This document shows, one piece after another, positions 3,490-33,500 of a stretch of 53,471 nucleotides of DNA. Origin of the DNA: Syntrophobacteraceae bacterium (lineage in GTDB: Bacteria; Desulfobacterota; Syntrophobacteria; Syntrophobacterales; Syntrophobacteraceae). The DNA lies in the NCBI GenBank assembly GCA_003165235.1, contig PLSV01000204.1:1-53471 (forward strand), given 5' to 3'. The position numbers and the translations under genes are program-made. How positions within the stretch are numbered: position 1 is the first letter of the stretch; each line of letters starts with the position of its first letter. The notes below the pieces were generated by a model. The model was not told where the DNA came from, did no database searches, and saw only the letters and a program-made list of their open reading frames with translations.

Positions 3490-3993
3490 CATGCTCCTCA
3501 CGTAGCGCACAATGGCCCAGGTTTCATCATCCGTGAGGGTGGAATAAAGGGGAGGATGCCGGTTGAAACCGAAGCGGACGTTATAAAAGATTTCACCGTC
3601 GCTCAGGTCCTGCACCTTTGAACTTTTAAGGTTTGCGGGCAGGGGGGCGAAACTTTGTCCAACCGTGCCGTTGCCGTCCAACATGGGACCGTGGCACTGC
3701 ACGCAGTAGAAATGATACCTTTCCCACCCCCAGGCGCGCATTTTGGAATCATCGGCGAGCGGGTCTACAATCTCCATGGGGTTTGCTTCACGTTCCACCC
3801 AGACGCCCCCGTCAACCGGGATGGTCTTTTTCGGCATCTGCGGGAATTCCTCGTTGTAGGCCTGTACCGCCTCGTCGTCTCGCATCTCGGAGTAATTGCA
3901 GCCAAACAGGGCGAGGGACGCAAAGCCGAGCAGAGCGATGAACACAGCGTGGCGCATGAGCGAGCAAGTGGGCGCGCTTCGTGCTGTTTTCAT
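3472..3993 (-). CDS. Cytochrome c lipoprotein, ActE-like
   Basis: This 173-residue protein starts with a signal peptide ending in a lipobox-like LALFGC at about 27-32, so it is probably a lipid-anchored periplasmic cytochrome. A single haem site CVQCH lies near residue 97, followed by GPMLDGNG and a methionine-poor class I cytochrome c fold ending in a WAIVRYVRSM helix. It is the last gene of the oxidase/alternative complex III operon and its start overlaps the upstream stop by four bases (3990-3993). By position and architecture it fits the mono-haem ActE subunit or a dedicated electron carrier between complex III and the oxidase. Its last residues (RVNSE and stop) are encoded by a heptamer repeat, so the C-terminus appears to be recently altered. 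Confidence 0.8.
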   Translation of the reverse strand: MKTARSAPTCSLMRHAVFIALLGFASLALFGCNYSEMRDDEAVQAYNEEFPQMPKKTIPVDGGVWVEREANPMEIVDPLADDSKMRAWGWERYHFYCVQCHGPMLDGNGTVGQSFAPLPANLKSSKVQDLSDGEIFYNVRFGFNRHPPLYSTLTDDETWAIVRYVRSMRVNSE

Positions 3994-4564: not shown

Positions 4565-4831
4565 TCAACGGTGATAGAGACCAAGCGTCAATGCGGCCGC
4601 GAAGGCGGTAAAACCTATCGCTGCTATAAAGAACAGGGCGGCCGTTTGCGCTCTGCGTTTTGCGCGGCTTACCCCTGGAATCGGCTCCGATAGAAGGTCT
4701 TTTCCAAGCGGCAGGTATCTCGCGCGCTCCTGGTCCGAAAACTGCCCTGCCCGGAGTCCCCAGATGAAGGCCGCAAGGCTCACGATCAGACTGATTACGA
4801 CAAGAAAAAGCCATCCGGAGTAATAGATCAT
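4565..4831 (-). CDS. CcoS-like cbb3 oxidase assembly protein
   Basis: The 88-residue product has an N-terminal transmembrane helix followed by FIWGLRAGQFSDQERARYLPL, close to the FWAxxSGQFDDxExPA signature of CcoS, the small protein needed for copper or haem insertion into cbb3 oxidases. Unlike classical CcoS it has a second C-terminal helix (about 66-86). Its start overlaps the end of the ccoO-ccoP fusion by four bases, which supports translational coupling. Confidence 0.65.
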   Translation of the reverse strand: MIYYSGWLFLVVISLIVSLAAFIWGLRAGQFSDQERARYLPLGKDLLSEPIPGVSRAKRRAQTAALFFIAAIGFTAFAAALTLGLYHR

Positions 4832-5775
4832 TTTTCCTTCACCACCGGTTCGTAGGCTGCGTCGATCCCTCTCGGCTCAGCGTGGGCGTCGGTTTGCCCG
4901 ATAAATGTCACGGCCACATAATTGCCAGCGTCCCAAATCTTCTCGGACTGAAGGTCCTTTTTGAAGTAGGGCATCGCGGTGCCCGTGATTCCGTTCATTA
5001 TCTGGTAATAGAGTATGCCCCCTGAGATCCCCCTGTCCTTGAGTATGGTAAAATTGAGGGGCGGAGGATAAAGATAAGGCTGGGCCGGGCCCATGCCGTC
5101 GCCCACCGGACCATGACAGCCGATGCAGAAGCTCTGGTAAATCCGGTGTCCGCGCCCCAGGCCGGCAGCGGAGGTGAGGTAGGGGTTGGGAAGCTTTCTC
5201 CAGCCTTCCGGAACATGGGAGTGCAGCCATTCGACGTTCTTTTCGGGACCTGACTCGAAGGCTGCTGTCGATTCGGCTTTCCAGTAATTCTGCCGGGCCG
5301 TTCTTTCGTCGGCCAGCTTAAATCCGAGGCTCTGTTTGTAGGCTATAAGGGCCTTGATTTTCTCCGGGCCGAGAAAATCCCAGGAAGGCATAAGCGACTC
5401 GGGCCGGGTGAACCTGGGGTTGGCGAAATGGGCCTGGTGCCAGTCGTTGGGATGCTCGCCGCCTTCCTCGGAAAGGTCCGGGCCTGTGCGCTCGGTCCCT
5501 AAAAGGTGGGGCGAGTCTGCAACGTAGTCTCCGGCTTGCGCTATCCTTTCGGAACCAATGTCCCAGTCGAAGTTGCGAATGAACTGAGTATGGCAGTAGG
5601 TGCAGCCGTTGTTCACATAAATCGAACGCCCTTCTTCTTCGAGTGGGGTGCGCTGCCTGAAGATATCCGACCCCTGCTCGCTCATCGTAATCCAGGGCAG
5701 GAGCACGAACATGAAGAACACCGGGGCGAAAACGAGCACCCCCCCAAGAACCAGTACGACCGGTGTCATCCTCAT
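4828..5775 (-). CDS. Fused CcoO-CcoP-like dihaem cytochrome c subunit of cbb3-type oxidase
   Basis: The 315-residue protein begins with a transmembrane helix (5-30), then a CcoO-type domain with haem site CTYCHTQFIR near 58-67 and TGPDLSEEGG. After a linker (about 150-205) comes a second cytochrome c domain with CIGCHGPVGDGMG near 218-230 and a C-terminal helix. In most bacteria CcoO and the dihaem CcoP are separate; here one chain carries a CcoO haem and one CcoP-like haem. The ATG overlaps the ccoN stop by four bases. It should pass electrons from periplasmic cytochromes or alternative complex III to the CcoN active site. Confidence 0.85.
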   Translation of the reverse strand: MRMTPVVLVLGGVLVFAPVFFMFVLLPWITMSEQGSDIFRQRTPLEEEGRSIYVNNGCTYCHTQFIRNFDWDIGSERIAQAGDYVADSPHLLGTERTGPDLSEEGGEHPNDWHQAHFANPRFTRPESLMPSWDFLGPEKIKALIAYKQSLGFKLADERTARQNYWKAESTAAFESGPEKNVEWLHSHVPEGWRKLPNPYLTSAAGLGRGHRIYQSFCIGCHGPVGDGMGPAQPYLYPPPLNFTILKDRGISGGILYYQIMNGITGTAMPYFKKDLQSEKIWDAGNYVAVTFIGQTDAHAEPRGIDAAYEPVVKEK

Positions 5776-7166
5776 TGTGGGTCTCCCTGAAACACTTCTC
5801 CGAATATGCGCTCGTCCTGCGCCTGCTCGCCCCGGATGGTCCTGATCACGTTATAGGCGCCGATGAAAGCCGCACCGATGATGAGCAGCCCCACAGCCGC
5901 ACGCACTATGAAATAGATGTGGATCATGGGCAGGGTGCGGTAGACGGTCGTTCCGTTAAGCCAGGCGTGCCCCTGGACGAGGCCTCCGGCCGTGAGCACC
6001 ATGAAAAACCCGGCCATGCCGAGAACGAGCAGCCAGTATTGGACGTCTGCAAGACGGCCGCTGTAGAGCGGTTTTCCCGTAATCCTGGGGAGCATGTAGT
6101 ATAGTCCCCCCAGTGCGATCATCCCCGAGAAGCCGAAAACCCCTATGTGCGAGTGTGCGATAACCCAATTATTCAAGTGAGTCACCCTCTGCACGACGGG
6201 CAGCGCCTGAATTGTTCCCTGCGTGGCGGTAAGGATATACCAGACCAGGCCGGCCGTTACGAATCTTCCACCGATATCCGCGTGGAAAAGCCCGAGCCTG
6301 TCCCGCATAGTGAGCCACAGGTTCACAAGCACCGTAAAGACCGGAATGACCATGGCAATGCTCCCGGATACGGCCATAGTCTTCAGCCAGACCGGTATGG
6401 GCGCCTGAAGAATGTGATGGGCCCCGATATGTGTGTATATGACTAGAATGGTCCAGAAGCCGACAAGCGACAGAACGTGGCTGTAGATGGGACTGCGGGC
6501 CACCCTGGGCACGATGTAGTACGCTATGGCGATAGCCAGAGGGGTTAAGAACAACCCCACGATGCCATGCCCGTAAAACCAGGCCAGAATTGCGTCCGGC
6601 AACCCGGTTATCGCGCCTTTCATGTTAAAGACGGCGTGTCCGAAAAAGTAGATCAACCACGTATATACCAGGGCCGCAAATATATACCAGGTCGAGACGT
6701 ACATTATCTTTTCCTGCCGGTTGGCCGCAGTCTGAAGCATGTTTACGAACATGAGCGCGAAAGCCAGAAGAATCCCCACATTGGCCGGCCAAATCCATTC
6801 GGCGTACTCTCTGCCCTGGGAGTGGCCCAAGTCTAGCGCCACGAGACCCGTAAGAATGGACAGGTTCCATACCCACAGGGAAACCTTCCCGAGCCGCTCG
6901 CTCCAAAGCGAGGTCCGCAGCACCGACGGCACTATGTAGTGGGCGCCGCCTAGGAGGGCTGTGCCCGCGAAACCGAAGATCATGGTGGTCGTGTGCATCG
7001 GGCGCACCCTGCTGAAAACCAGCCCGGCAATGCCTCCAAAAAGGTCTGGAATGACCAGCCCGGTGGCGGCCGTAATGCCTTCCAGGGCGCCGAGGACAAA
7101 CCAGAGGGCCGAACTCAGGAAATAGAGCTTTGCGGTCCCGTTTTCTTCAACCTTTAGAAGCTGCAC
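5772..7166 (-). CDS. ccoN: cbb3-type cytochrome c oxidase catalytic subunit I
   Basis: This is a 464-residue polytopic membrane protein of the haem-copper oxidase family. Visible motifs are MHTTTMIFGF (low-spin haem ligand region), FYGHGIVGLFLTPLA (CuB and Tyr region), THIGAHHILQ (CuB histidines) and VIAHSHIGVFGFSGM (haem ligands). I chose the GTG at 7166, which has GAGG eight bases upstream; the open frame runs to an ATG at 7229, but that extra sequence is heptamer repeat DNA and codes for no conserved residues. It reduces O2 to water, probably with electrons from the alternative complex III encoded just upstream in the operon. Confidence 0.9.
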   Translation of the reverse strand: MQLLKVEENGTAKLYFLSSALWFVLGALEGITAATGLVIPDLFGGIAGLVFSRVRPMHTTTMIFGFAGTALLGGAHYIVPSVLRTSLWSERLGKVSLWVWNLSILTGLVALDLGHSQGREYAEWIWPANVGILLAFALMFVNMLQTAANRQEKIMYVSTWYIFAALVYTWLIYFFGHAVFNMKGAITGLPDAILAWFYGHGIVGLFLTPLAIAIAYYIVPRVARSPIYSHVLSLVGFWTILVIYTHIGAHHILQAPIPVWLKTMAVSGSIAMVIPVFTVLVNLWLTMRDRLGLFHADIGGRFVTAGLVWYILTATQGTIQALPVVQRVTHLNNWVIAHSHIGVFGFSGMIALGGLYYMLPRITGKPLYSGRLADVQYWLLVLGMAGFFMVLTAGGLVQGHAWLNGTTVYRTLPMIHIYFIVRAAVGLLIIGAAFIGAYNVIRTIRGEQAQDERIFGEVFQGDPQ

Positions 7167-7179
7167 CTGCTTATACCTC

Positions 7180-7249
7180 GTGACTAGTGACTGGTGGATA
7201 GTGAATAGTGAACAGTGACTAATCACCATTCACCGGTCACCATTCACTA
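7180..7249. repeat. Heptamer short tandem repeats in inverted arrangement
   Basis: Exactly ten 7-base units are visible: six of the GTGANTA type (GTGACTA, GTGACTG, GTGGATA, GTGAATA, GTGAACA, GTGACTA), then four of the complementary type (ATCACCA, TTCACCG, GTCACCA, TTCACTA). The halves can pair as an imperfect hairpin. The array fills the gap between actA and ccoN, and the actA stop codon (7247-7249) lies in the last unit. Confidence 0.85.
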
Positions 7250-7783
7250 ATGATGGCAGCCCAGATAGCAGTCAAGCTGCGCGTGTTTCTCCTGGTGGCA
7301 TGTTATGCAGAAATTCATCTGGAAATCCACCCTGACCAACCGGTCCATCGATGGAACGGCGCCATGGCACCTGAGGCAGTCGATTTGCGCAATCATATGC
7401 GGTTGATGTCTGAACTTTACAAAATCGGGAACAAAGTAGATGCGGACCCATGGGACCGGGAGGTTTTTGTCAAGATGCGCCTTTTCGTGCAGGATCTGGG
7501 GGTGCATCGGAATTATGTATTTATGGCAAAAGAAACACTTTTCGACTTCCGGCAGTCCCGCATGCTCTGAGCGCTCGACATAAGGATGGCAGAAACGGCA
7601 GTTGATCTGTTTCACCCCGGCGTGCACCCGGTGGCTGAAATAAATCGGCTGGACCGGTCCCAGGTCCTGGCTCGGGAAAAGGTAGTAAAAGTAGAGAAGG
7701 GTGAGCAGAAGCAGAACGGTTGCACAGAACCACCCCGTCCACCACATCGCTTCTTTTCTCGTCGTCTTGGCGCCTTCAGCCAT
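7247..7783 (-). CDS. actA: Alternative complex III pentahaem cytochrome c subunit, ActA-like
   Basis: This 178-residue protein has an N-terminal membrane anchor (about 16-36) and a periplasmic domain with haem sites CRFCH, CFFCH, CLRCH and CITCH, and a final CYLGCH (Cys-x3-Cys-His) right at the C-terminus. Five sites match the pentahaem ActA subunit of alternative complex III, a quinol:electron-acceptor oxidoreductase. A GAGGG site precedes the ATG. In most clusters actA comes first, whereas here it follows actF, so the gene order is altered. The spacing of the last haem site is non-standard and the protein stops two residues later. Confidence 0.8.
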   Translation of the reverse strand: MAEGAKTTRKEAMWWTGWFCATVLLLLTLLYFYYLFPSQDLGPVQPIYFSHRVHAGVKQINCRFCHPYVERSEHAGLPEVEKCFFCHKYIIPMHPQILHEKAHLDKNLPVPWVRIYFVPDFVKFRHQPHMIAQIDCLRCHGAVPSMDRLVRVDFQMNFCITCHQEKHAQLDCYLGCHH

Positions 7784-7840: not shown

Positions 7841-9061
7841 TCACGCCAGGTGAGGCTCCTTCTCTTCCGGCTCGAGCGCCGGAGCAAGTTTCGGGTCGGA
7901 AACCGCCAGCACAGGGAATCTCTGTAAAAAAGTGCAGACACAGAAGGCGAAAAGCCCAAGCCATCCCAGGGTGATCAGTACTTCAGATATTCCGAGCGGC
8001 AGCGACTTGCTCTTCACCAGCGAAGGGGTCACCAGCAGAAATTTTTCCAGCCAGATCCCGATCAGAATCCATACCGATATTGCCGTCATAAGGACAGGCT
8101 TCATTTTTATTTTTCTCAGGAGCAAAACCACGAAGGGGACTACGAAAAGCACAATGAGCACCGTCCACGCCAGCGCCGCCCATGGATCGTAGATAACGCG
8201 CCAGATCAAGTATCGGGTCTCATCGGGCAGATTGCCATACCAGATAACCAGGAACTGAACGTAGAAAAAATCCAGACCAACCACACAGAAGGAGAAAAGA
8301 AGCTTGCCGATGTCGTGAAACTGCTTTTTCTCGATAACTCTGCCCATACCCATTTTCTTGACGGCGAATGTGGACAGAATGGCCAAAAACGCAAGCCCCG
8401 CATAGAAGGAAATCACGAAATAATAAGCCCCGAAAAGCGTGCTGAACCACTCCGGGTTGAGCGACATCATCATGTCGAACGCCACCAGCGTCAAAATGAA
8501 CGCATAGAGGATGACGTATGCGGTTGACAGGGATTGCTGAGCGCGTTGGCGGTCCGGCGCGCCCGAAACCCCTCCCATATATTCCATGTCGCTTCTGACG
8601 GAATGGTAGGCGAGCAGAACCGCTGTGACAGTCATGGCAAGCAGCCCGACGCCCTCACGCGCGAAGAAAAAAGGCGTATTCAACCATGGCGCTTTTTGTT
8701 CTTCCGGATGGAGCACCCACCAGAAAGCATTCGCCCTTCCAAGGAAAAGAGGCCAAAGCAGGATGAAGGAAACGGGGAGAAAGAGGGCGACTGATTCTGA
8801 TAATCTCTTTACGGGCCTTCCCCAGGTCGCGTTTGTCAAAACGAGAATCGGCGAGAGCAGGAAAGTCCCGAATGCAAGGCCTGTCCAATAGACATAGTTG
8901 GTCAGATAAGCGGACCACGCCCTTGTGGCGTCACCTTCGAAAAGCTGGTGGAAAAACGCCGCTGCGCCTATAAGAAAAAGGACCAGGCTCAACGCTTTGA
9001 GTGTTCCCCAGTTTAGAGACTTTTTTGCAAGCTCGATTTCCGGGTAAAGCTCAGTCTTCAA
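7841..9061 (-). CDS. actF: Alternative complex III quinone-binding membrane subunit ActF
   Basis: This 406-residue protein has about ten transmembrane helices and the layout of ActF, the second NrfD-like quinol-binding subunit of alternative complex III. The start is a TTG at 9061 with AGGAGG nine bases upstream; the start overlaps the end of actD by eleven bases. Cues include the WSAYLTNYVYWTGLAFGTF region near the N-terminus and a helix-rich core with RYLIWRVIYDPWAALAW. It probably shares quinol oxidation with ActC. Confidence 0.8.
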   Translation of the reverse strand: MKTELYPEIELAKKSLNWGTLKALSLVLFLIGAAAFFHQLFEGDATRAWSAYLTNYVYWTGLAFGTFLLSPILVLTNATWGRPVKRLSESVALFLPVSFILLWPLFLGRANAFWWVLHPEEQKAPWLNTPFFFAREGVGLLAMTVTAVLLAYHSVRSDMEYMGGVSGAPDRQRAQQSLSTAYVILYAFILTLVAFDMMMSLNPEWFSTLFGAYYFVISFYAGLAFLAILSTFAVKKMGMGRVIEKKQFHDIGKLLFSFCVVGLDFFYVQFLVIWYGNLPDETRYLIWRVIYDPWAALAWTVLIVLFVVPFVVLLLRKIKMKPVLMTAISVWILIGIWLEKFLLVTPSLVKSKSLPLGISEVLITLGWLGLFAFCVCTFLQRFPVLAVSDPKLAPALEPEEKEPHLA

Positions 9062-9566
9062 TCTGACGGACCTCCTCAGCGCCCAGGTTCTTCAAGATGC
9101 TCGAAACCGGCTCGATATCGGCCTCAGCGCAATAAACCAAAATCCCGAAACGGTCCTGGCTGAAACGCTTGTCGTAATGCGGGGGAAGGCGCATTTTCGG
9201 CATCCTGTTCAGGAAAAGCAAACCTCCCAGCGTAAAAAAAACAGCTATCAGAATGAGAAACTCGAAACCCGGTATAACTGCCGGGATTACCGGGATCGGA
9301 GGCTTGCCGCCAACTATGAACCGCCACTGGGCGGCTGTGTACCAGGCAAGAGAAATCCCGATCAGGACCCCAAGAATTCCTCCGGTCAGGGTGTAGAAAC
9401 GACCGGGCCCCAGGAGCGGTTCGCCAAGCGCCTCCCGGATTTCTTCCGTCCTCATCGGGGAGTAAACCGCCTCAATAGGGACCTTCTGCTTCCTGAGGCC
9501 CTCTATGGCCGCGACAACCTCGTTGAGGTATGCGAAAATCCCGACTACAGCCAGTTTTTTAGCCAT
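9051..9566 (-). CDS. actD: Alternative complex III subunit ActD (DUF3341)
   Basis: The 171-residue protein has a soluble N-terminal domain (KKLAVVGIFAYLNEVVAAIEGL), two central transmembrane helices (about 63-82 and 100-122) around a short PPIPVIPAVIPGFEFLIL segment, and a C-terminal domain with RFGILVYCAEADIEP. This is the DUF3341 architecture of ActD. AGGA precedes the ATG. It lies 12 bases downstream of actC and overlaps actF. Confidence 0.85.
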   Translation of the reverse strand: MAKKLAVVGIFAYLNEVVAAIEGLRKQKVPIEAVYSPMRTEEIREALGEPLLGPGRFYTLTGGILGVLIGISLAWYTAAQWRFIVGGKPPIPVIPAVIPGFEFLILIAVFFTLGGLLFLNRMPKMRLPPHYDKRFSQDRFGILVYCAEADIEPVSSILKNLGAEEVRQIED

Positions 9567-9578
9567 CGATGTTTCCTA

Positions 9579-10940
9579 TTACTTTTTCCTGACCGGAACG
9601 GGTATCGCCTCCTTTGCCTCCGTTATCGAGATCGTAGGCAAAAACTTTGCGAAAAGGAGGAAAAGGAAAAAAAAGAGGCTGAATGAACCGATCAGGATGC
9701 CCCATTCAACTATGGATGGGTACTTATAAAGACCCCATGAGTAGGGGTCATATTCATGGGCTTCCGACCCCACAATAATCACCAGCCGCTCGAACCACAT
9801 TCCTATCAGCACCAGAACGCCTATGGAGAACAGGGCCGCCAGGTTTGTCCTGATTTTCTTGAAGAACAGGGCTATCGGAACCACAGCGTTGCAGACGATC
9901 ATCATCCAGAAGCACCAGGAATAGTAGCCTGTCATCCGCCACATGTACTGGGCCTGTTCGGCCTTGCCGCCTCCGTACCAGGCGATGAAATGCTCTACCA
10001 GGTAGGAGTAGCCGACTATAAGGCCCGTAAGGATGATCGTTTTGCCGATATTTTCGAGCACGTCGATCGTGATCAGGTTTTCGAACCTGAATATCCTGCG
10101 CATCGGAATGAGAAGCACCAGGACCATCGCAAGCCCGGAATGAATCGCGCCCGCAACGAAATAGGGGGCGAAAATCGTGCTGTGCCATCCTGGAACGATG
10201 CCCAGGGCGAAGTCTCAGGAAACGACGCTGTGCACGGAAATGACGAGCGGGGTGGCAAGGGCCGCAAACAGCAGGTAGGCGGTCCCGTAATGCCTCCAGG
10301 ACTTGCTGGAACCACTCCAGCCAAGTGAGAAAAAGCCGTATATCCTGTTTCTTATACCGGCGGTGCGGTCCCTGATGGTCGCCAGGTCCGGGACCATCCC
10401 GGTGTACCAGAAAAGGAAACTCACGGTTAGATAGGTAGAGACTGCAACAACGTCGAAAACCAGGGGTGACTGAAAATTGGGCCATAAATTCCGTTGGTTC
10501 GGGTATGGAAGTATCCAGTAAACCAACCAGACGCGCCCCAGGTGAATGAGCGGAAACAGGCCGGCTATCATTACCGCGAAAACTGTCATCGCTTCGGAAC
10601 TCCTGGAAATGGTCGTCCTCCAGGATGCCCGAAACAGAAACAAAATGGCCGAAATAAGGGTGCCGGAATGGGCGATGCCTACCCAAAATACAAAGTTCAC
10701 CAGGTAAGATCCCCACATCGTGGGGTGGGTAATGTTGGCCGCCCCGAGGCCCGTTGAGATCTGGTACGCCCAGGAAAAAGCGCCGACAAGAACGCCCAGC
10801 CCGGTAATCGCTACACAAAGCCAGTAAAAGCCGCCGGGGCTCCACATAGCCCCCAGTATCTGATCGTCTACAGCGCCGTAAGTAGTCAGATCCTGCGGCC
10901 CCGCCGCCTCGGCAACCCCATTGGAAACGTTCGCCCCCAT
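9579..10940 (-). pseudogene. actC: Alternative complex III NrfD-like subunit ActC, with in-frame TGA
   Basis: Two frames (10940-10215 and the frame ending at 9579) are in register and broken only by TGA at 10215-10217. Reading through gives a continuous 453-residue polysulfide-reductase/NrfD-type membrane protein: N-terminal [16 protein letters not shown], about ten helices, and HSVVS-stop-DFALGIVPGWHSTIF at the break. Relatives have an aromatic residue here, Trp as I recall, so TGG to TGA is the simplest cause. The remainder of the frame, through PVPVRKK, is uncorrupted. The start has AAGGGA upstream. ActC is the main quinol-oxidising, proton-path subunit, so a real stop should disable the complex; readthrough, sequencing error or a very recent mutation are alternatives. 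A short stem (CCTGG/CCAGG, 10189-10206) lies just after the TGA, but the residue is not one where selenocysteine is expected. Confidence 0.8.
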
Positions 10941-10965: not shown

Positions 10966-13929
10966 TCAAACCGTAATCTTCTGAGTCACCCTTTTGAGGT
11001 AGATAACAGCAGGCTTGGTATTGAGGTGCGCCAGCACCTGGTAAGCCCTTACATCGTTAATCAGCTTCGATGCCCTGCTCTCCGGGTCAAGCAGGCTTCC
11101 AAAGATCAGGGCGCCGGTCGGGCAGGTCTGTGCGCATGCTGTCGTAAAGTCCCCGTCGCGCAATTTTTCGCGGCCTTTTACCTTGGCGTCGAGTTTTGCC
11201 TCTATGATTCTATGGACACAGAAGGAACACTTCTCCATTACGCCTTTCTGCCTAACCGTAACGTCGGGATTTAGCTGCCACTTGAGCGGTTCGGGCCGGG
11301 TGAAGGTATACCAGTTGAAACGCCGCACTTTGTAGGGATCGTTTTGAGAGCAGAAACGGGTTCCGAAGCAGCGATTGTAAATCTGGTTGTTTAGCCCTTC
11401 CTGGCTGTGATGCGGCGCGAAAATAGGGCACACATACTCACACGGCGCGTTGTCGCAATGCTGGCAAAGCATTACCAGCCATTTGGCGGCCTTTCCGTCA
11501 TCGTCGAAATATCTCTGGACCCTTATCCAGGACATCTCGCGCCCCTTAAGGACCTGCTCCCGTTTCACGACGGCGACATTATTTTCAGAGTAGCATGCGG
11601 CTACGCAGGCGCCGCAGCCGGTACAGCGGTCGAGGTCCACGACCATTGCCCAGCGATATTCTTTATACATTTGGCGCGGATAGAAATCTTTCGACTCCCG
11701 GTACCCATCCGGCAGGGGATAATAGAGGTTGGGCTTTTCTCCGGACGCCGCCATCCTGTTTCGCTCCTCCAGGCTTATTGCCACCGCCATCTCGCGGCCG
11801 TGCTGGAAGAAGCTTCCGTCGGTATTGGCGATATCGAAAGTCTCACCCGTTTTTTCGATCTCCGGATTCAGCCCTTGACGCAGGATAGCGCCGCAAACCG
11901 GGTCGATGTCCGGCGCCAGAAGCTCGAAAGGATTCGCCGGAAGCCCGTTTGCAAACCTGCCCAGGTTGGAATGCCCCTGGCCGACCGGTATTGCGACGAC
12001 GCCCTCCGGTACGGTGTAGATGGGCAGGGCTGGAATTCGGATGGTCCCATAATCCGTTTTCACCCGGAGGAGGTCTCCTTTATTCAGGCCCAATTTCCCG
12101 GCTGTCTCCGGATGAATCTCCAGCCATCCCCCCCAGGTCGCCTGGGTCATCGGGTCGGGGATCTCCTGGACCCACATGTGGTTGGCCATCCTGCCGTCAT
12201 AGAACTGTATCGTTGGATAGATGACCAGTGGAAGACCTGTTCCAGGCTTTTGCTCCGGGTCGGGAAAATTGAACGCCGGCACGGGCAGGGAGCGCGCCGG
12301 GCCGAGCCCGGCCTGCTCCGGCCAGTAGCCGCCCTGCATGACCAGCTTCCGCCAGAAGGCGTCGAATGATTCGCTCCCGGCCTCGGCCGATATTCGCGTC
12401 CAGTAGCCCTGGAGCGCCTCATAGAAATCCTTGAAGGGAAAGCTCTCTTCACCCTTCATCTTTTTGCCCGTGGAGATAAGAATATCCCCCATGTGCTTCG
12501 TATTGAAAACCGGTCCCATAACCGGCTGCATGAACCCTGTCACTCCCGGTCTTGGTGAATAATCGCCCCAGGATTCAAAGGAGTAATGGGTGGGCAGGAC
12601 CAGGTGGGCCAGGACGCCGGTCTCGTCAACCGCCGGAGAAAGCCCCGCCACGAAAGGCACGGCCTTCATCGCCCCTGCAAAATCCCATGACTTGGGGAGC
12701 GAAAAAACGGGATTCACTCCCCGGAAAAGGAAAACGTCCACTTCTCCAGAGCGCATCCGTTCGGCAAGGGTTTTGACTTCATCGGCCCGGGCGGCCAGGG
12801 TATGAGAGGATTCCCGGTTGAAATCGATCGCCGAAAGAGTCGCAGATTTGATAGTGCACAGCAGGTTTGCGGCAACCGCCGTTTCGGTCGCATTGGGCAG
12901 ACATTGAGAAAGGCCTTCAGCGACCGCCAGAGGGCGAGCCGCCCCGGCAAACCTTTTGGCCACGGCTTCGATAAGGCCCGGATCGCACCCGGCTACAGCG
13001 GCTGACCTGTCAACGGGCCAGTTTCCAACCATCGATGCAAGCGCCTCCCTCCGATTCTCAGGCAGGCCCGGCGCCAGATTCTTGTCAAGAATTGACCGAA
13101 TGATTCCCAGCCCCACCGCGTACTCCGTTCCGGGGCGCGTCGCAATCCACAGGTCGGCATTGTTCGCCGTCATGGAAAGCCTCGGTCCGACGAAGACGAA
13201 GGTATTTTTTCTCTCACCCCTGATTGGGTGAAAAGATCCGTATTGGCGTTCAAATTCGAGATTGGATATCCAGGTTTCGAGAAAGCCCGCGTTAAAAGAG
13301 ATTAGAAAATCGAGTTCATCGAACCGGTAAGTCGGAATGGCGTCGCGGCCAAAAACCGCCTGGTTGGCTTTCTTCAGAGGCTCATAGGACCAGGGTTCAT
13401 ACATTATATGACCGTTTCGCTGGCCCATTTCACTCAGCCACAACCCTGTCAGATCGTGTAAAGATCCGGTCATCAGGTCGGTCATAACTACTATCCGGCC
13501 GTTCCCTCCCTTGCGGACCGCCTCAGACAATTTCGCGGCCAGGATTGCCTCGCCACTCTCCCAAGTGATGGGATCGAAACCGCCGGCCGCATTCCGCTGC
13601 ATCGGCCCCGTGAACCGGTCGGGGTTGTACAGGCCGTGCAGCGAAGCCTGTCCTCGCATGCAGAGTGCGCCTCCGCTGACCGGGTGTGCGGGATTGCCTT
13701 CCACCTTTACGATCCGCCCCTCACGATTCTTTGCGAGCATCCCGCATCCTGCCGGACACTCACGGCAGGTCGTAGCGTAGTACACCGCCTTTCCGGGAAC
13801 CACGTCTTCAGGCGGATGAATGTAGGGAATCAGATACCGCGTGGCCGGCTCGCCGCAGCCACTCAGCATAGCTCCTGTTCCAGCTATTCCGAATAGTTTC
13901 AGAAAATCCCGGCGGCGCATATCCAGCAT
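10966..13929 (-). CDS. actB: Alternative complex III molybdopterin-fold/Fe-S subunit ActB (fused B1-B2)
   Basis: The protein of about 987 residues starts with a twin-arginine signal (MRRRDFLKLFGIAGTGAML) ending in a cysteine. A molybdopterin oxidoreductase-type region follows with CRECPAGCGM and CMRGQASLHG; ActB proteins keep this fold without bound molybdenum. The C-terminal quarter is a ferredoxin-like domain with cysteine clusters CTGCGACVAAC, CQHCDNAPCEYVC, CSFCVHRI and CAQTCPTGAL, able to hold four clusters. I chose the ATG at 13929 (MLDMRRRD) or 13920; the longer frame to 14055 adds only non-signal sequence. It is the first gene of the respiratory operon and carries electrons between quinol sites and haems outside the membrane. 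Confidence 0.88.
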   Translation of the reverse strand: MLDMRRRDFLKLFGIAGTGAMLSGCGEPATRYLIPYIHPPEDVVPGKAVYYATTCRECPAGCGMLAKNREGRIVKVEGNPAHPVSGGALCMRGQASLHGLYNPDRFTGPMQRNAAGGFDPITWESGEAILAAKLSEAVRKGGNGRIVVMTDLMTGSLHDLTGLWLSEMGQRNGHIMYEPWSYEPLKKANQAVFGRDAIPTYRFDELDFLISFNAGFLETWISNLEFERQYGSFHPIRGERKNTFVFVGPRLSMTANNADLWIATRPGTEYAVGLGIIRSILDKNLAPGLPENRREALASMVGNWPVDRSAAVAGCDPGLIEAVAKRFAGAARPLAVAEGLSQCLPNATETAVAANLLCTIKSATLSAIDFNRESSHTLAARADEVKTLAERMRSGEVDVFLFRGVNPVFSLPKSWDFAGAMKAVPFVAGLSPAVDETGVLAHLVLPTHYSFESWGDYSPRPGVTGFMQPVMGPVFNTKHMGDILISTGKKMKGEESFPFKDFYEALQGYWTRISAEAGSESFDAFWRKLVMQGGYWPEQAGLGPARSLPVPAFNFPDPEQKPGTGLPLVIYPTIQFYDGRMANHMWVQEIPDPMTQATWGGWLEIHPETAGKLGLNKGDLLRVKTDYGTIRIPALPIYTVPEGVVAIPVGQGHSNLGRFANGLPANPFELLAPDIDPVCGAILRQGLNPEIEKTGETFDIANTDGSFFQHGREMAVAISLEERNRMAASGEKPNLYYPLPDGYRESKDFYPRQMYKEYRWAMVVDLDRCTGCGACVAACYSENNVAVVKREQVLKGREMSWIRVQRYFDDDGKAAKWLVMLCQHCDNAPCEYVCPIFAPHHSQEGLNNQIYNRCFGTRFCSQNDPYKVRRFNWYTFTRPEPLKWQLNPDVTVRQKGVMEKCSFCVHRIIEAKLDAKVKGREKLRDGDFTTACAQTCPTGALIFGSLLDPESRASKLINDVRAYQVLAHLNTKPAVIYLKRVTQKITV

Positions 13930-14361
13930 TTGCCAAAGCCCCAAAACTCTATAAGAAGGTAAATATCTTGATAAATAGTGAGAAAACAACCTGATGAGTC
14001 CCGCATACGGCCTGTGGAACTCTTTGCGAAAGAAAAATAATACTGCGGGTTTCAATTACAATAGTCTGTGATCGTGTTTCTATCCAAATTCCAATCGCAA
14101 TGCGGCGCCTTTCCCGATGAAACGCAGGAACATCCCCGGCAAAAACCGGACTCGCACACATGGTTTGGGCGCAGATTTATTTTTACTTGCTACTAAACGG
14201 ACAATTCCTGCTGTCGAGCAGATCGAGGCGACCGATTTGGATGCTGTCCAACGCGCTCGGCGTCACACTGAGCAGTCTATGCCCCCTTCGTATCGCACAG
14301 AGTTGTCGAAGGGGGCTTTGAGTTCCTTAGGCGATCCGGTTCCTATGCTTAGCGGGCATTG
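13930..14361. promoter_or_regulatory. Upstream region of the ACIII/oxidase operon
   Basis: No gene is supported in this stretch, which should hold the promoter of the minus-strand respiratory operon. I could not assign -35/-10 or a named operator with confidence. A perfect 10-bp inverted repeat at 14281-14290 and 14307-14316 (GCCCCCTTCG / CGAAGGGGGC, 16-base loop) lies in it and may be the terminator of the gene at 14362-14841 or a regulatory site. Confidence 0.4.
14281..14316. terminator. Inverted repeat, possible terminator
   Basis: Arms GCCCCCTTCG and CGAAGGGGGC pair perfectly with a 16-base loop. The hairpin lies about 45 bases downstream of the stop of the minus-strand gene 14362-14841. 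It lacks a clear T-run on either side, so rho-independent termination is uncertain. Confidence 0.4.
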
Positions 14362-15746: not shown

Positions 15747-16054
15747 CACTTTACATCCTCACAGATAAGCTAAGCGCAGTCCCTTCGGCTTTCGGTCCGG
15801 GGATCCACTATCATACAAATATTATAGTGACTGGCCGGACATCGGCAATGCAGCGGCCGCCGGCGACAAGAGATCTGTAATTTCGGCCGGCTATCCCGCG
15901 GCCTGGAATTCCAGCGTCACACTCCTTAAATTGGACGACAGCCGGATTCAGTCGCCCGGCGCCATACGGCCAATCGTAGAGGCAGCCGGCAGGGGCAATG
16001 TCACTTGGCGCCATAGCGCTCATGCCACCGAACACAACAAAGACAGGGGGAAGA
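15747..16054. promoter_or_regulatory. Divergent promoter region between HdeD and nitric oxide reductase
   Basis: About 300 bases separate two divergently transcribed genes, so promoters for both should lie here. I see no TTGAT-N4-ATCAA site and cannot place an NO-responsive operator by eye. Confidence 0.35.
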
Positions 16055-18355
16055 ATGGAACCCGAACAAGAGATCGCGGAACAACTCTCGCCATGGTGGA
16101 AACGAGCGGTCCTTATTACGATGTCGATCGGATTCACCGTTCTGATTCTTGTGGCAGTGCTCGCCTACCGTGACGCTCCGCCGATCCCCGAAGGAATTAT
16201 CACCTCCTCGGGGGAATTGCTGCTGACCGGGGGAGATATCCTGGCGGGCCAGGAAGTGTTTCTCAAGTATGGGCTAATGGAAAACGGCACCATCTGGGGA
16301 CACGGAGCTTACCTCGGACCTGATTTTTCTGCCGCATACCTTCACACACTGGGTGTCGATGCCGCCGAAGCCCAGGCGCAAAAGCTCTTCGGCCGCAGCA
16401 TGGACCACCTGTCCGAAGGGGAGCGGGGGACCGTTGAAGAGGAGGTCCGGCTCCTGCTGAAACAGAATCGCTATGACCCAGGGACCCGAACACTGGTCTT
16501 CACCGAACCGGAAACAGCTTCCTACCGAAAACAGATAAGCCAATGGACCGGCTACTTCTCGACGCCGGCCGGAAACGGGGGGTTGAAGCGCAACTATATC
16601 AGCGACCGCACGGAACTGGAGCAGTTGACCGCTTTTTTTGCCTGGGCGGCGTGGGCCTCCGTCGCCAATCGCCCAGGTCAGTCTCAAACCTACACGAACA
16701 ACTTTCCATACGACACCCTGGTGGGCAACACCCCTCCCGGCGACGCCGTTCTTTGGAGCGCCATCAGTCTTATCGCTCTCCTCATTGGCACGGCGCTCGT
16801 GTTGTTTGCTTTCGGCAAATTCAATTACCTTGGCTGGAAGAGGGCAAGCCCTCATGTCCATCCGCACATGCTGCCGGGTATAGCAAGTGAGAGCCAAAGA
16901 GCAACCATCAAGTTTTTCCTGGCGGTTTCCCTCCTTTTCCTTGCGCAGGTTTTGGCAGGCGGCGCCACCGCGCACTTCCGGGCCGAACCGGGGAGCTTCT
17001 ACGGAATCGACCTCTCCGGGGTATTTCCGAGCAATATTTTGCGAACCTGGCATTTGCAGTTGGCCATTTTTTGGATTGCGACCGCCTATGTAGGGGGTGG
17101 TTTGCTGTTAGCCGGGGCACTGGGAGAATCCGAGCCCAAGGGGCAGGTGTGGGGAATAAACCTGTTGTTCTGGGTGCTGGTTGGGGTTGTGGCCGGGAGC
17201 CTTCTGGGCGAATTTTTGGGCATCAATCAGATCCTTGGAATCCTCTGGTTCTGGTTCGGACACCAGGGCTGGGAATATCTCGACCTCGGCCGGGGCTGGC
17301 AAATCATGCTCGCACTGGGACTGGTGCTGTGGACCATTCTGCTGCTTCGAGGGGTTGCCCCCGCACTGCGTGACCCGGAACGCAAAGAGATATCGTGGCT
17401 TTTCATGCTCTCGGCCTCGACAATACCGCTTTTCTATTTGCCGGCTTTCTTTTTCGGCAGCACTACGGAGTATTCGATTGTTGACAACTGGCGCTTCTGG
17501 ATCATCCACCTGTGGGTCGAGGGCTTTTTCGAACTTTTTGTCACGGTGATGGTGGCCGTCATCTTTTACAGGCTGGGCATGGTCTCCCGCCAGACTGCCG
17601 CGCGAGTCATTTACCTGGACGCCATTCTCTTTCTGGGCAGCGGGATTATCGGCACGGGCCATCACTGGTATTGGACGGGCCAGTCCAATGTCAATCTTGC
17701 CCTTTCCGCCTTATTCTCGGCGATGGAAGTCGTCCCCTTGACGCTTCTCACGCTGGATGCCTGGGATTTCATCAGACTGACCAGGGGCAAGTGTGACATC
17801 TGCGGAAAACCCATATCCATCCCTCATAAATGGACGTTCTATTTCCTGATGGCGGTGGGATTCTGGAATTTCGTCGGGGCCGGCATCTTCGGGTTTCTCA
17901 TCAATCTGCCTATCGTAAGCTATTTCGAAGTGGGCACCGTGCTCACACCAAACCACGGCCACGCGGCGCTCATGGGCGCATTCGGCATGGAAGCGGTTGC
18001 GTTGATGGTTCTGGCCTTTCGACAGGCATCGACGGACGTGCAGTGGGCGCGCACTGAAAAATACATACGCGTATCCTTCTGGGGCCTGAACACGGGCCTG
18101 GCGCTTATGATTGCAGGCAATCTTTTTCCCGGGGGCATCTTGCAGTTCCATGACGTATTGACCCACGGATACTGGCATGCGCGCGGACTTGACTATCTGA
18201 ACCAGGAGTTTGTGAAACTCATCGAGTGGGCTCGTTTGCCCGGCGACACGGTCTTCATCGTGTTAGGCGTCATCCCGATGGTGATTGCGGTGGCATTGAC
18301 CTACCTCGATCAATGGAAAACTCCTGCTCTTGAAATGGGGCCATCGAAAGGATAG
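16055..18355 (+). CDS. norZ: Quinol-dependent nitric oxide reductase (qNOR)
   Basis: The ATG at 16055 follows AGGGGGAAGA and gives 766 residues. An N-terminal helix and a periplasmic extension (about 15-215, with GQEVFLKYGLMENGTIWGHG) are followed by about a dozen helices of the NorB type. Motifs are RTWHLQLAIFWIATAYVGGG, HLWVEGFFELF (active-site His and Glu), GTGHHWYWTGQ (two FeB His ligands) and NHGHAALMGAFGMEAV (haem ligands). The fused N-terminal domain makes it the single-subunit quinol type that reduces NO to N2O without NorC. The intact Glu and double His argue for NO reductase over the NO dismutase variant. No other denitrification gene is nearby, so NO detoxification is the likely role. 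Confidence 0.9.
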   Translation: MEPEQEIAEQLSPWWKRAVLITMSIGFTVLILVAVLAYRDAPPIPEGIITSSGELLLTGGDILAGQEVFLKYGLMENGTIWGHGAYLGPDFSAAYLHTLGVDAAEAQAQKLFGRSMDHLSEGERGTVEEEVRLLLKQNRYDPGTRTLVFTEPETASYRKQISQWTGYFSTPAGNGGLKRNYISDRTELEQLTAFFAWAAWASVANRPGQSQTYTNNFPYDTLVGNTPPGDAVLWSAISLIALLIGTALVLFAFGKFNYLGWKRASPHVHPHMLPGIASESQRATIKFFLAVSLLFLAQVLAGGATAHFRAEPGSFYGIDLSGVFPSNILRTWHLQLAIFWIATAYVGGGLLLAGALGESEPKGQVWGINLLFWVLVGVVAGSLLGEFLGINQILGILWFWFGHQGWEYLDLGRGWQIMLALGLVLWTILLLRGVAPALRDPERKEISWLFMLSASTIPLFYLPAFFFGSTTEYSIVDNWRFWIIHLWVEGFFELFVTVMVAVIFYRLGMVSRQTAARVIYLDAILFLGSGIIGTGHHWYWTGQSNVNLALSALFSAMEVVPLTLLTLDAWDFIRLTRGKCDICGKPISIPHKWTFYFLMAVGFWNFVGAGIFGFLINLPIVSYFEVGTVLTPNHGHAALMGAFGMEAVALMVLAFRQASTDVQWARTEKYIRVSFWGLNTGLALMIAGNLFPGGILQFHDVLTHGYWHARGLDYLNQEFVKLIEWARLPGDTVFIVLGVIPMVIAVALTYLDQWKTPALEMGPSKG

Positions 18356-27819: not shown

Positions 27820-28401
27820 CTATCGAGAATAGCGGTACACGAACAAGATTTCGGCATGCTCGCCGGAATTCGGCGCCAGGGCCCGTGAGACGACTGTGTA
27901 ATAGTAGCAGCCATTCGGGCACGTAGCGGAGCCGGCCTGCTGAGTAGTCATCGAGTTATCGATGACTTTGACGTCAACCGTGTAGTTGGACAATGTAAGA
28001 GTTATGTCCGGACTTACGGTGGGGTTGGTGTTTGTCGCATTAGCCTGGGATGGACATGCGGGAGCGGTGTTCCATGCCGCTGTCGAGGACCAGCTCGATG
28101 TCGCGTTGCCCACCTTTACCTGAAGACATCGGCCCTGGTTCAGGCTCGTGCCGAAAGGCGCACTGGGAGGAACGGAGACTTGATTTTGCACCATGTAGAT
28201 GAACAGGTCCGTTCCAGCTTTGGCAGCGTCCAGGGCTGTTGTGTAGCCTTGCTCCAAACGGGCCAGTTTCGTTTCCTGGGTTGAGAGCCGGAACATTATC
28301 GCCACGACCGCAAATCCAAGCACCAGTATCATCAGAGTGGCGACCAGGGCTATTCCTTTTTGGCTTTGGATCGGATTTATCATCTTCTCAGTTAACTTCA
28401 T
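27820..28401 (-). CDS. pilX: Type IV pilus minor pseudopilin PilX-like
   Basis: The 193-residue protein has a short leader, the PilX-type N-terminal helix KGIALVATLMILVLGFAVVA without the usual +5 Glu of major pilins, and a globular C-terminal half with two cysteine pairs (APACPSQANATN, ATCPNGCYYY). It is the last gene of the minor-pilin operon and its start overlaps the pilW stop by four bases. It primes pilus assembly with PilV, PilW and PilY1. Confidence 0.8.
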   Translation of the reverse strand: MKLTEKMINPIQSQKGIALVATLMILVLGFAVVAIMFRLSTQETKLARLEQGYTTALDAAKAGTDLFIYMVQNQVSVPPSAPFGTSLNQGRCLQVKVGNATSSWSSTAAWNTAPACPSQANATNTNPTVSPDITLTLSNYTVDVKVIDNSMTTQQAGSATCPNGCYYYTVVSRALAPNSGEHAEILFVYRYSR

Positions 28402-29654
28402 CGGGTTGTCAGGTTCAGCAAGTTCATAGGCTTGATGGCCATTTCAAGGATCTTCCAGCGGTATTGAACGTCTGCGCCTGTAGGGGTGAAGCTGCTGAGC
28501 GCCCCCGTAAGGGCCGAACTGCTCAACTGTTTAAATGGGTTGTTCGTTGTATAGTTTCCCCCAAGGCTGTTGGCAATGTCCTGGTCGCCAAGATTCAAAA
28601 CGCCGGAAAAGCGGAAATTGGAAGATCCTTGACCGGATGAGGCGCTGGAGTCGCCGAGCCCTTCCTGGTAGAGCACAAATACTCTCACTTCACGTAGCTG
28701 CTGCTGTATTTGCACGGCCGTCGGGGAGGTTTGCTGCCACACGAGTGGTTGAGCGCCTGAACTGGCATCAAGCCCGAAGGCTACCTCAAAGTCCCTTACG
28801 CAGTCGACCAGGGGGGCTTTGTTGAGAGTGCCGTCCGCCTGGTTTACCGTGCTTCGATACAGTGTGTAGGTGCTTGCGGCGCAACTGCTTGGAAAATCGG
28901 CGGCAATTTTGTCCAGGTAATAATCAACGCGGTTGAACGGCATTATGTGCGTGCCGGTCTTGTTATCGAGACCGTACATATAATAGACATTTTGTGGGCT
29001 GGGGGACCCGATGGCGGCGGCGTTGGAATAATAACCGGTATTGGCTGCTGACGCATTGAACGTATAGCAGCCCCAAGGCCCGGACGCGGGCTGCAGCACG
29101 CCATTATTGTCGAGAACGATGAATCTGTCGTTGGTTGTAAAGTCCATGACAGGGTCAAGGGCCGTGACTCCCCATAACTTGACCGTTGGAGTAGCGCCTG
29201 CATTGGTGATCATGGACCATTTCTTGCTAGTTGCATTGATGTTCGCCGCGCTCGACTTTATGGCGAGAACGTCGGAGCTGTAGGCGCTCGACTTTGTGGC
29301 GGCGGGCACATTGTTGCCCGGCTTCGGGTTTAGCATCACTAGCGCCCTCGGAGGGCTATTTGGCGAATCGTTGAGATCAGCCGGGTTGTAGTAGTTTACG
29401 GTATTATCATTGGCTTCGCTGTAGGTTACTCCCGCCGCAAAGCTTGCGGGCAGGCCGAACCCGGCCATTTCGATATCGTAGCGCAACATCTCCATACCGG
29501 TCAAATTCGCCATATAGCTTTCGGCCAGCCTGCCCTGGGTCCTGTAAGTCCTCAGAAGCTTCAGGTAGGCAGTGGTTACCGCGCAGAGGATAACCATTAC
29601 AACCGCCAGGCTGACCAACAGCTCCACCATGGTCATGCCGCGCTGCCTGTTCAT
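28398..29654 (-). CDS. pilW: Type IV pilus minor pseudopilin PilW-like
   Basis: This 418-residue protein starts with the class III signal RGMTMVELLVSLAVVMVILC (prepilin peptidase site after Gly, +5 Glu in MTMVE), followed by the PilW signature ...MEMLRYDIEMAGFGLP. The large C-terminal domain contains LYRSTVNQADGTLNKAPLVDC and is larger than in most pilins. ATGA overlaps join it to pilV and pilX. It belongs to the minor-pilin priming complex. Confidence 0.85.
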   Translation of the reverse strand: MNRQRGMTMVELLVSLAVVMVILCAVTTAYLKLLRTYRTQGRLAESYMANLTGMEMLRYDIEMAGFGLPASFAAGVTYSEANDNTVNYYNPADLNDSPNSPPRALVMLNPKPGNNVPAATKSSAYSSDVLAIKSSAANINATSKKWSMITNAGATPTVKLWGVTALDPVMDFTTNDRFIVLDNNGVLQPASGPWGCYTFNASAANTGYYSNAAAIGSPSPQNVYYMYGLDNKTGTHIMPFNRVDYYLDKIAADFPSSCAASTYTLYRSTVNQADGTLNKAPLVDCVRDFEVAFGLDASSGAQPLVWQQTSPTAVQIQQQLREVRVFVLYQEGLGDSSASSGQGSSNFRFSGVLNLGDQDIANSLGGNYTTNNPFKQLSSSALTGALSSFTPTGADVQYRWKILEMAIKPMNLLNLTTR

Positions 29655-30067: not shown

Positions 30068-30568
30068 TTATTTTGGCGCACAATTGCCGGCATTCATTTT
30101 TCCAAGTGTTATTCTGGTGCTTGAAACCGCCACGCAATCTATTGCAGCCCCGGAGGTCGATGAAACACTGAATGTAATCGGATTGGCGGGGTCCAGAAAC
30201 CCCCTGCCGTCAAAGCTCACGCTATTCTGGTTAACCGAAGGAGTAATGGCGTACTTTGGGCTCACCGCCGCCCCGATCTGCGTGTCGACGCCGGTGTCAT
30301 CGATTACGCCATTGTTGTTCGCGTCAGATCTTACCTGGTAGGAGGTGATGCTGGCGCCTCCTCCCCACCATACGCCCGACGCCAATTTGCCGCTGTAGGC
30401 GGTCATGCGCCCAAACTGAAGGTTGCTGTAAAGCTGGACCATCTGGTTTTCTATATCGTGTTTCTTTTTCCAGCTCGAGTATGAGGGAACGCCCCAGGCC
30501 AGCAGCAGCACGCAGATCGAGACTACCACCATCAATTCGACTAGAGTGAATCCGCCTTGTTTTTTCAT
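30068..30568 (-). CDS. Type IV pilus/GspH-type pseudopilin, FimT/FimU-like
   Basis: The 166-residue protein has a short leader and the helix GFTLVELMVVVSICVLLL (cleavage after Gly, +5 Glu), then SYSSWKKKHDIENQMVQLYS and a C-terminal beta domain. This matches the GspH/FimT family, which begins many PilV-PilW-PilX clusters. Its start overlaps the pilY1 stop by four bases, so translation is coupled to PilY1. Confidence 0.85.
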   Translation of the reverse strand: MKKQGGFTLVELMVVVSICVLLLAWGVPSYSSWKKKHDIENQMVQLYSNLQFGRMTAYSGKLASGVWWGGGASITSYQVRSDANNNGVIDDTGVDTQIGAAVSPKYAITPSVNQNSVSFDGRGFLDPANPITFSVSSTSGAAIDCVAVSSTRITLGKMNAGNCAPK

Positions 30569-33500
30569 CTTTCAATCCATTGTATCAGTTGCCCCGATTT
30601 GGCCGCCGATGTGGCCGGTTGCACTTCAGGGACCGAAGTTTCCGGCGGCATGCCGTGATACCATATGGTTGTCCTTGTGCCGGCGGCCGCGCCGTCACCG
30701 GGGCCCGTACCGACGAACGAAGAGGCGGCGTTGATCTGGTATATCGCCCCGGTGGAGGTTTGCAGATACAGGGTCCCAGACGGGTTGGCCACCGTATATG
30801 AGCCGCATGTTTGTGCAAGCGCTTCCCCCGTCGCGCAGTTCAGACCCCACACACGGCTCTGGCCGCCATAGCCGCATGCTTCGGAAGTGGGTTCGGAAGT
30901 AGTGAAAAATATCGAGTTGGCGCCCACGGATACAGTGGGATCGGTAATCAGTCTCTCCCCGAGAAAGGACCCCGTTGCAGGTTCCAGGGGGTACTGCCAG
31001 CCGACCTGAAGAAAGGAGCTTGGATTAGTTGCATTACTACTGCTGCTTGCGTTCGCGCATGCAGTCGTAACGGCGCTATCGGAGTTCAGGGAGGCGATGC
31101 TGGCGCAATTGTTGTTGCATTGATCGCAGGTAAACGGTATTCCCATGAGATAATTCGGACCGGCGCCAGTATAGTCGTACTGCGGCAGGGAGGAAAAGTA
31201 CCTTCCCGACCCGGCATAGAGGTACCATGTATTGAAACACTGCTCGGTCGCTATCCTTGCGGTTATGGGCAGTGTGGCAATATTGGCGTATGTTGTTGCG
31301 TCATAGCCCCAGGCGCCCGGATCGTTGTTGCTAGTATAGATTTTCCCGACGCCTCCCTGCCAGCCGGTGGAGCTGCCGCTTGGCGAGTTCCCGTACCCGA
31401 AGAAAACAAAGTCCGTGTAGCCATCCCCGTTTACATCCAGGCCGTTGGTGAAAAGCCTCCCTCCAGACCCGTTCGCGGTGGCGGCGCCGAAATCATGGCG
31501 GAAGACTTTATTGATTGTCAGGTTGGCGTTAAGGGTAAGGACGAAAGCCTGGAGGCTCTGAACTGAACTGCCGTCCGCCGGGTTTGTCGGGCCTGACAGG
31601 AACATTACGTAATACTGGTTGCCGCTCGGACTAACCGGCGGATTAGCACAGGGATCACCCGTGTTTGACCACTTGTGGATAACCGCCGGCCCGGAGTAGG
31701 AATAACCCAGGAATGGATGGCTGAATTCCCATAGGAGTATGGGGTTCTGGGCGTCGGTGATATCGAGGGCGTAATATGAAGAAAGCCCGGTGCAGCTCGA
31801 AGGATTGGAGCAGCTAGTGTAGCAGGGAGTAGAATCGGCGCACTTCACAGGGGTGCATGTGTCCGATGGAGCGTTGATGAGGTATGCGCTGGAACAGTTC
31901 GAGTTATACGGGGCCGTTGTGCAGTTCGAGTTCTGTGAGCATGGCTGTCCATTGGATACCCCGGAACTGTTGAAGCAGTAATTGCCGGGAGTAGGGGAAG
32001 TGATGGTCCCGCCCCCGAGTCTCATCCCGCCGATCAGGATCGTCTTCGGAATTGGCGGCCCGCTTGGGTCGTTTGGGTTTGGAACCATCATTGTCGTGAT
32101 GTACGGGCTCAAATCGCTGTAATAGAGATGACAAGTCCCCGGAGGAACTGCGAGGCACCTCAGGTAGGGAAGACTGTTCTGGGGAATGAAGGCCCACAAT
32201 TCCTGCCCCATGTTCGGGGTCGGAATTCCCGTTAATTCTGTCACCTGGTATTGCGCTGCACTCAATCCCGCACTGCTTAGAGTTCCCGTTTGGAAAGCGT
32301 GCAGCATTCCGTCGTTGGCGCCGACAAAGATGACGCTTTGCTTCTTCCGGCACGAAGTAAAGGAACCGGTCGTGCCGCAATCGGAGTCCTGAGTGCAGAG
32401 CTGGGTATTGAAAGAAGCGCCGTTGGAGCAATATTTGTAATCAGCTTGAACCTGGGGTGTGGAATAGACGATGTCCCCCAATTTCCATACATTTTGCGTG
32501 CAGACGCCGCTCGAGCAATCCGAGGGCGAGCTGCATGGGGCCCCGTTCGAACAGAGTCCAACGGTCCTGTTCCTGCAATTTGGGAGGTCCGTCCCCCTTA
32601 CATAATTTATAAGATTTTGCAAAGTTGCTATATCGCTTGATCCCTGAAGGCAGGGATCAAAGTTCGACGGCGCGCCCAATGGTGAAGACCCTGGTGTGGT
32701 GAGGGCTGAGTTGGCGGTATCAAAACTAACCAGACCGGCGCCGTTGCTCCCCGGAATGTAGATTTGCCTGCCGGCTGGGGTTGTCAGGAACAGTTGTTTT
32801 CCCGCTTCCCACAGGGGGGTCAGAGAATCCAGCCCGACGTTATCGACAAGTGTGTCCGGATCGCCCAGATTGACGGCGTCGTTCGAGTCTTTGTTACGAT
32901 TCACGGAAAGGCCGTTCTGGAGGTCGAATACAAAAGATATCGCGTAGTCGTCGTTGAGTTCGAGGATATAGTCATGAAGGGTATCCTCTCTTATGTTGCT
33001 GTATGCCGCGCCGTTATAGAACCAGTAGTCGTAGAGATAACCCGGCCAACTTATGCTCGCCGCCCCAAAAAGTTTGGAAGGGTAAAATACGCCCTGCAGC
33101 ATGTTGGCGCCATTCTGAGTCTGGCCCTCGGACAGAACCGAGACGGAACTGCCTGCAGCAACACGCGCCAGAAGGTCCGTGATAATGCTGTTCAGAGCAT
33201 CGACAAACTGGTCGGGATTATCGGCGTAATAAGCGTGCCCGGAAGTGGCCGTGCCGCCTGCATTGGCCATCTTGTCCAGGTTTGCCTTCGCCTCGGTAGT
33301 AAGGCCCATTCCCAGAACATAAGTCTTGATGGGATATGTCGTACCGCCGCTTATTGGCGTCACGCCTTGCTGAAGCTGGGTAACCTGCGCCAGGACTTGC
33401 TGCATGAGGTCCGACATGACCGAAGGGTTTGGGGTGGGCTGCGAGCCATTCATGAAAGTGGACGGCAAGCCGTCCGTAGCATAAATTATATAGTTCTTTT

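Follow-up and report, generated by a model that had tools for sequence, protein, structure and literature searches.

Origin and identity of the interrupted gene

The question raised by a 53,471-nucleotide stretch of DNA from a Syntrophobacteraceae bacterium (GenBank assembly GCA_003165235.1, contig PLSV01000204.1; "the window" denotes this stretch in its whole length) is how an in-frame TGA came to lie within its gene actC, which codes for the NrfD-like membrane subunit of alternative complex III. The TGA might be a genuine mutation, an error of the assembly or a codon that is read as an amino acid. Taken together, a real and very recent loss-of-function allele is the most likely answer and an artefact comes second. 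The case is an ordinary event in a well-known gene, and a novel decoding of UGA is not the likely cause. The gene and its parts are as follows.

9579..10940, minus strand: actC, NrfD-like membrane subunit of alternative complex III, 453 codons with one interruption (from the reading frame, Pfam and the match to solved chains)
10215..10217, minus strand: in-frame TGA, codon 242 of 453 (TCA on the plus strand)
10215..10940, minus strand: open reading frame (ORF) before the TGA, 241 codons, with the TGA as its terminal codon
10218..10940, minus strand: predicted truncated product, 241 amino acids with five hydrophobic segments
9579..10127, minus strand: ORF after the TGA, its first ATG, GTG or TTG start being residue 272, within a hydrophobic segment

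An earlier note on this DNA had described a TGA at 10215-10217 in an actC frame clean on both sides, and this description holds: past the TGA the frame stays open down to a TAA at 9579, which gives 453 residues if the TGA is read through, and counted from stop to stop it comprises 248 codons before and 211 codons after the TGA, with no second in-frame stop found in it. The range given there, 10189-10940, lies within the gene but covers only a part of 9579-10940. Its assignment of the gene to actC of an alternative complex III operon is likewise supported, by the operon context and by the read-through product, which belongs to the NrfD family (Pfam PF03916, 89.6 bits versus a cut-off of 25.8, residues 71-392) and matches the solved ActC chains 6f0k_C, 6lod_C, 6btm_C and 8k9e_C over residues 39-447 (best match 6f0k_C, E = 2.1e-136; 6btm_C, E = 2.8e-124). 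As both the PF03916 and the ActC-chain match run across the TGA, this is one interrupted gene and not two adjoining ORFs. The full read-through product would have ten hydrophobic segments; five of these are encoded before the TGA, which directly follows the fifth (residues 223-241).

Conservation of codon 242 among relatives

Relatives came from 97 related genomes, searched at the protein level, and from named genomes that were scanned in addition. From the loci L001-L081 we left out five of the genome itself (L001-L005), two in which the column was aligned to a paralogue (L070 and L080), one that did not cover the column (L081) and ten duplicates, leaving 63 distinct sequences, amongst them the relic L032 described below. 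At codon 242 these relatives have Trp in 57 cases, Phe in five and Met in one, and neither a stop nor Cys occurs in any of the 63; even L032 carries its stops elsewhere in the matched stretch. The lesion is thus confined to one lineage, while the relatives have a sense codon at this column, and the surrounding stretch shows strong conservation from species to species. That a single lesion had struck a Trp column is in line with these counts, and no stop or break at the same site came to light in the usable homologues; the expectation of an aromatic residue in the relatives is correct for the Trp and Phe sequences but fails for the one with Met.

Two other candidate lesions did not withstand inspection. 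In L070 (WVXP01000280.1) actC is cut by two scaffold N gaps, at 3705-3712 and 3931-3984, the first of which covers the codon 242 site and makes this locus unusable for the column. It does not count as evidence for a second broken actC, as its breaks are these gaps and the stop in its matched stretch precedes the likely start. A TGA in actF of L039 is the natural end of that gene.

Selection before and after the TGA

Changes specific to the interrupted gene, defined as changes at columns identical in four congeners, amount to 2 of 158 columns before the TGA and 3 of 133 after it. When each congener in turn is taken as the focal sequence, the corresponding values before and after the TGA are 2/158 and 1/131, 10/166 and 10/140, 3/159 and 5/135, and 11/167 and 14/144. 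Invariant columns, defined in 34 relatives of at least 60% identity (relic L032 among them), are kept at 75 of 75 positions before the TGA and 53 of 54 after it. The ratio of nonsynonymous to synonymous change (dN/dS) to the four congeners ranges from 0.036 to 0.093 before and from 0.036 to 0.112 after the TGA, with synonymous sites near saturation. Lacking a second in-frame stop and differing at just one of the 54 invariant columns after the TGA, actC does not have the appearance of a decayed pseudogene. The part after the TGA being as conserved as the part before it, the stop is either very young or not in the organism. From the sequence there appears to have been no measurable time without selection since the lesion, although a single sequence with near-saturated synonymous sites cannot date it closely.

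Reading of UGA in this genome

TGA is the commonest terminal stop in the window, ending 8 of 12 inspected genes. Release factor 2 (RF2) is present (516.9 bits, one match over the family cut-off), and its gene prfB keeps an in-frame CTT TGA C site after a GGGAGG stretch, a motif which we take to be the programmed UGA frameshift site of this factor. All 41 tRNA matches to RF00005 were typed by ARAGORN and include one tRNA-Trp, with anticodon CCA, and none with a UCA anticodon; all 65 matches to a UCA-anticodon pattern were scanned as well, and the only UCA tRNA is tRNA-Sec. The survey scored 150 of 259 candidates, and tRNAs for Cys, His and Ile did not turn up. The check for suppressor tRNA genes proposed in the earlier note was therefore negative within these 41 typed tRNAs and 65 pattern matches, though a divergent suppressor may have escaped it.

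An altered tRNA-Trp is not supported: the sole tRNA-Trp found is of the standard kind, with a 5-bp anticodon stem, G24 and A9 as read from its sequence. According to PMC13092985, it is a 4-bp anticodon stem, G24A and A9C in tRNA-Trp that are linked to UGA reading. As far as searched, the machinery is that of the standard code, and there is no sign that UGA is read differently here.

A probable recent nonsense allele of actC

The interruption is probably a very recent nonsense allele of actC, carried by the sequenced strain or by the majority strain of the bin. On this reading a Trp codon in actC would have changed to TGA recently, UGA would be read as a stop, and translation would end after residue 241. 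ActC is described in PMC8076601 as two four-helix bundles and two outer helices; each bundle has a half-channel, and the first also contains the quinol site. Given this layout, truncation of ActC would spare the first bundle and remove the second. The cell would still make the five N-terminal hydrophobic segments, in which the first helix bundle is expected to lie, but neither the second four-helix bundle nor the last helix. Alternative complex III would then fail to assemble, or would form in traces only through the normal leakiness of UGA, with the ordinary tRNA-Trp inserting Trp.

We infer both the loss of the complex and the biological reality of the allele. The TGA is no proof of a silent complex in nature, because the source is a metagenome bin, in which an artefact or a strain variant is possible. 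Several observations weigh against a nonsense allele. The TGA base is known from the consensus of the bin assembly alone and has been seen in one genome of the species; the bin has 8.88% contamination and, at 7.07 Mb, exceeds ten congeners (3.7-5.5 Mb) in size; an artefact or productive read-through would equally leave selection after the TGA intact; and the tRNA survey was incomplete, as outlined above. No nonsense allele of actC was encountered in the titles and abstract openings found, which does not prove its absence from print.

If the allele is real, it would be a snapshot of the first step in losing alternative complex III, in a genus that has the complex in four of the ten genomes searched. 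The case matters chiefly for annotation, since automatic gene calling will yield two pieces of actC or miss the gene, from which it may be concluded in error that the organism lacks complex III or that the gene is recoded.

A possible assembly artefact

The strongest competitor, clearly less probable but to be taken seriously, is an artefact of the metagenome assembly that arose from sequencing, from the consensus or from the mixing of strains, in which case the organism has a sense codon at this position. The bin consists of 424 contigs, and its contamination and its excess of size over ten congeners are in keeping with such an artefact; also the full conservation of the part after the TGA fits it. 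Mis-joining of related species is conceivable, given that the region of codon 242 is conserved between species and that L070 has its scaffold gap at the same place. Furthermore, the reading frame of an MFS transporter gene on contig C91 of the bin is disrupted close to nine consecutive C, possibly through an indel error.

On the other hand, in-frame stops seem to be rare in this assembly. None was found in 92 ABC-ATPase matches (150 of 245 candidates scored) or in 13 Proton_antipo_M matches. Stops were present in 5 of 59 MFS rows, of which four were inspected (that on C409 lay outside the inspected set) and showed no lone in-frame stop: those on C44 and C186 overrun the natural end of the gene, and the two on C91 represent one frame-shifted gene. 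The window contains no N, and the change is a single transition from the codon of most relatives, a type common among real mutations.

A second intact actC in the bin is not supported: the protein search gave this gene and its actF paralogue, and a search for the NrfD family returned three other, divergent NrfD genes.

Of the observations made alongside, the MFS gene on C91 (L162, G000:C91:22746-23962, minus strand), with its frame change near the nine-C run, may have mutated by slippage, may be subject to phase variation or may contain an indel error. The bin (G000) as a whole may be a mixture given its size and contamination, although for RF2, and likewise for SelB, a single match exceeds the family cut-off.

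Unlikely readings: read-through, split protein and selenocysteine

Productive read-through with Trp, by which the allele would be kept as a low-expression or leaky version and complex III made at a reduced level, is improbable. TGA is described as 'leaky' in PMC7918605, where E. coli and S. typhimurium are said to insert Trp at it, though very infrequently, and insertion of Trp would rebuild the commonest residue of the family at codon 242 in a gene whose selection after the TGA looks intact. However, no suppressor tRNA was found, the tRNA-Trp lacks the UGA-reading features given in PMC13092985, the RNA structure after the TGA is not unusual, and the TGA occurs in no relative, so there is no sign of its being kept. 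Still less probable is a maintained leaky-stop allele, in which the operon would be kept and limiting ActC throttled through UGA being read by tRNA-Trp at a few percent. If true, one reversible base would set the level at which aerobic respiration is expressed in a lineage that is otherwise anaerobic.

A split ActC, whose half-proteins would meet at the repeat boundary, was rejected. The first ATG, GTG or TTG after the TGA is residue 272, inside the hydrophobic segment 260-278, and the ORF at 9579..10127 is therefore not a credible second half-protein.

Selenocysteine (Sec) at codon 242 is highly improbable, and the earlier note had also called it unlikely. The genome does possess the machinery, namely tRNA-Sec (74 bits, also found by ARAGORN) and SelB (377.8 bits, one match over the family cut-off in the bin), so that what speaks against Sec is the residue of the relatives at this column together with the missing stem signal, and not an absence of machinery. 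None of the 63 relatives has Cys there, all having Trp, Phe or Met, and residue 242 is located where a hydrophobic segment ends. The short stem noted after the TGA does exist, but its stability is average: the z-score of downstream folding is -0.16, 81 of 200 shuffles are at least as stable, and by the energy of the 42 nt downstream the site ranks 24 of 129 Trp or TGA sites in 12 window genes. No Rfam family reached its gathering score in the window, where no search specific for the selenocysteine insertion sequence (SECIS) was made.

A genome-wide reassignment of UGA to Trp has a negligible chance, since nothing speaks for it beyond one codon, while RF2 with its programmed UGA frameshift is present, UGA is the commonest terminal stop in the 12 window genes and no UCA tRNA-Trp appeared in the tRNA searches.

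Operon and neighbouring genes

The operon around the TGA is complete, and the claim that the neighbours of actC are undamaged proved right, as its other genes are open frames.

10966..14055, minus strand: actB, fused molybdopterin-like and iron-sulfur parts, open frame (ActB parts by Pfam)
9051..9566, minus strand: actD, open frame (Pfam PF11821, 125.9 bits)
7841..9061, minus strand: actF, second NrfD-like subunit, open frame without Pfam match (weak similarity to ActC, 29%, and synteny)
7247..7783, minus strand: small multiheme cytochrome c in ActA-like position, open frame (QrcA match below the QrcA cut-off)
5772..7229, minus strand: heme-copper oxidase subunit I, open frame
4828..5775, minus strand: FixO-like and cytochrome c oxidase subunit, open frame

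The order of the operon is thus actB, actC, actD, actF, small multiheme cytochrome and oxidase subunits, where the assignment of the cytochrome and of actF derives from synteny with congeners and weak matches only. The same gene order is found in the close relatives L035-L037 within their fetched flanks, and L038 ends inside actF.

Beside the operon, at 15998-18355 on the plus strand, lies a qNOR-like nitric oxide reductase gene (785 amino acids, NorB cytochrome c-like domain and COX1 domain). Elsewhere in the window, an ORF of 1457 amino acids at 30565-34938 on the minus strand is without Pfam or NCBIfam match at E = 0.001; it is located near a PilW-like gene (28398-29654) and possibly codes for a type IV pilus tip or PilY-like protein.

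Alternative complex III in related genomes

An ActC orthologue (E below 1e-200) is present in four of ten congeners, and the other six gave weak matches only (E = 1e-6 to 1e-3). As far as draft bins allow one to judge, the genus thus seems to gain and lose the complex. An orphan relic of actC resides in the same-family genome G021 (L032/L161, G021:C80, 335-1546) and contains one TGA and one TAG; of 129 invariant columns, determined from 32 relatives with L032 left out, 12 are changed in it, one of them to a stop, and a search of its 8.9-kb contig for actB, actD and actF gave no match at E = 1e-8. The presence of orthologues in four of ten congeners together with this relic suggests that loss of the complex is tolerated.

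Comparison with known systems

The relic in G021 is likewise a broken actC, but with two stops and many invariant residues lost it is an older pseudogene, in contrast to the otherwise clean actC of the window. Another parallel is provided by the short-lived in-frame stops described across bacterial genomes by Belinky et al. 2021 (PMC7918605), which also consist of one stop in a gene whose remainder is under purifying selection and which persist only briefly. Unlike those cases as presented there, the stop in actC is known from a single genome and from its consensus alone. With respect to decoding, the UGA-reading tRNA-Trp of PMC13092985 has a 4-bp stem, G24A or A9C, whereas the only tRNA-Trp found here has none of these. 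Finally, the read-through product aligns along its core with known ActC (6f0k_C, 6lod_C, 6btm_C and 8k9e_C, and PMC8076601), and has ten hydrophobic segments and the expected operon; in contrast to ActC as portrayed in that paper, the actC of the window is broken at codon 242, ahead of the second helix bundle.
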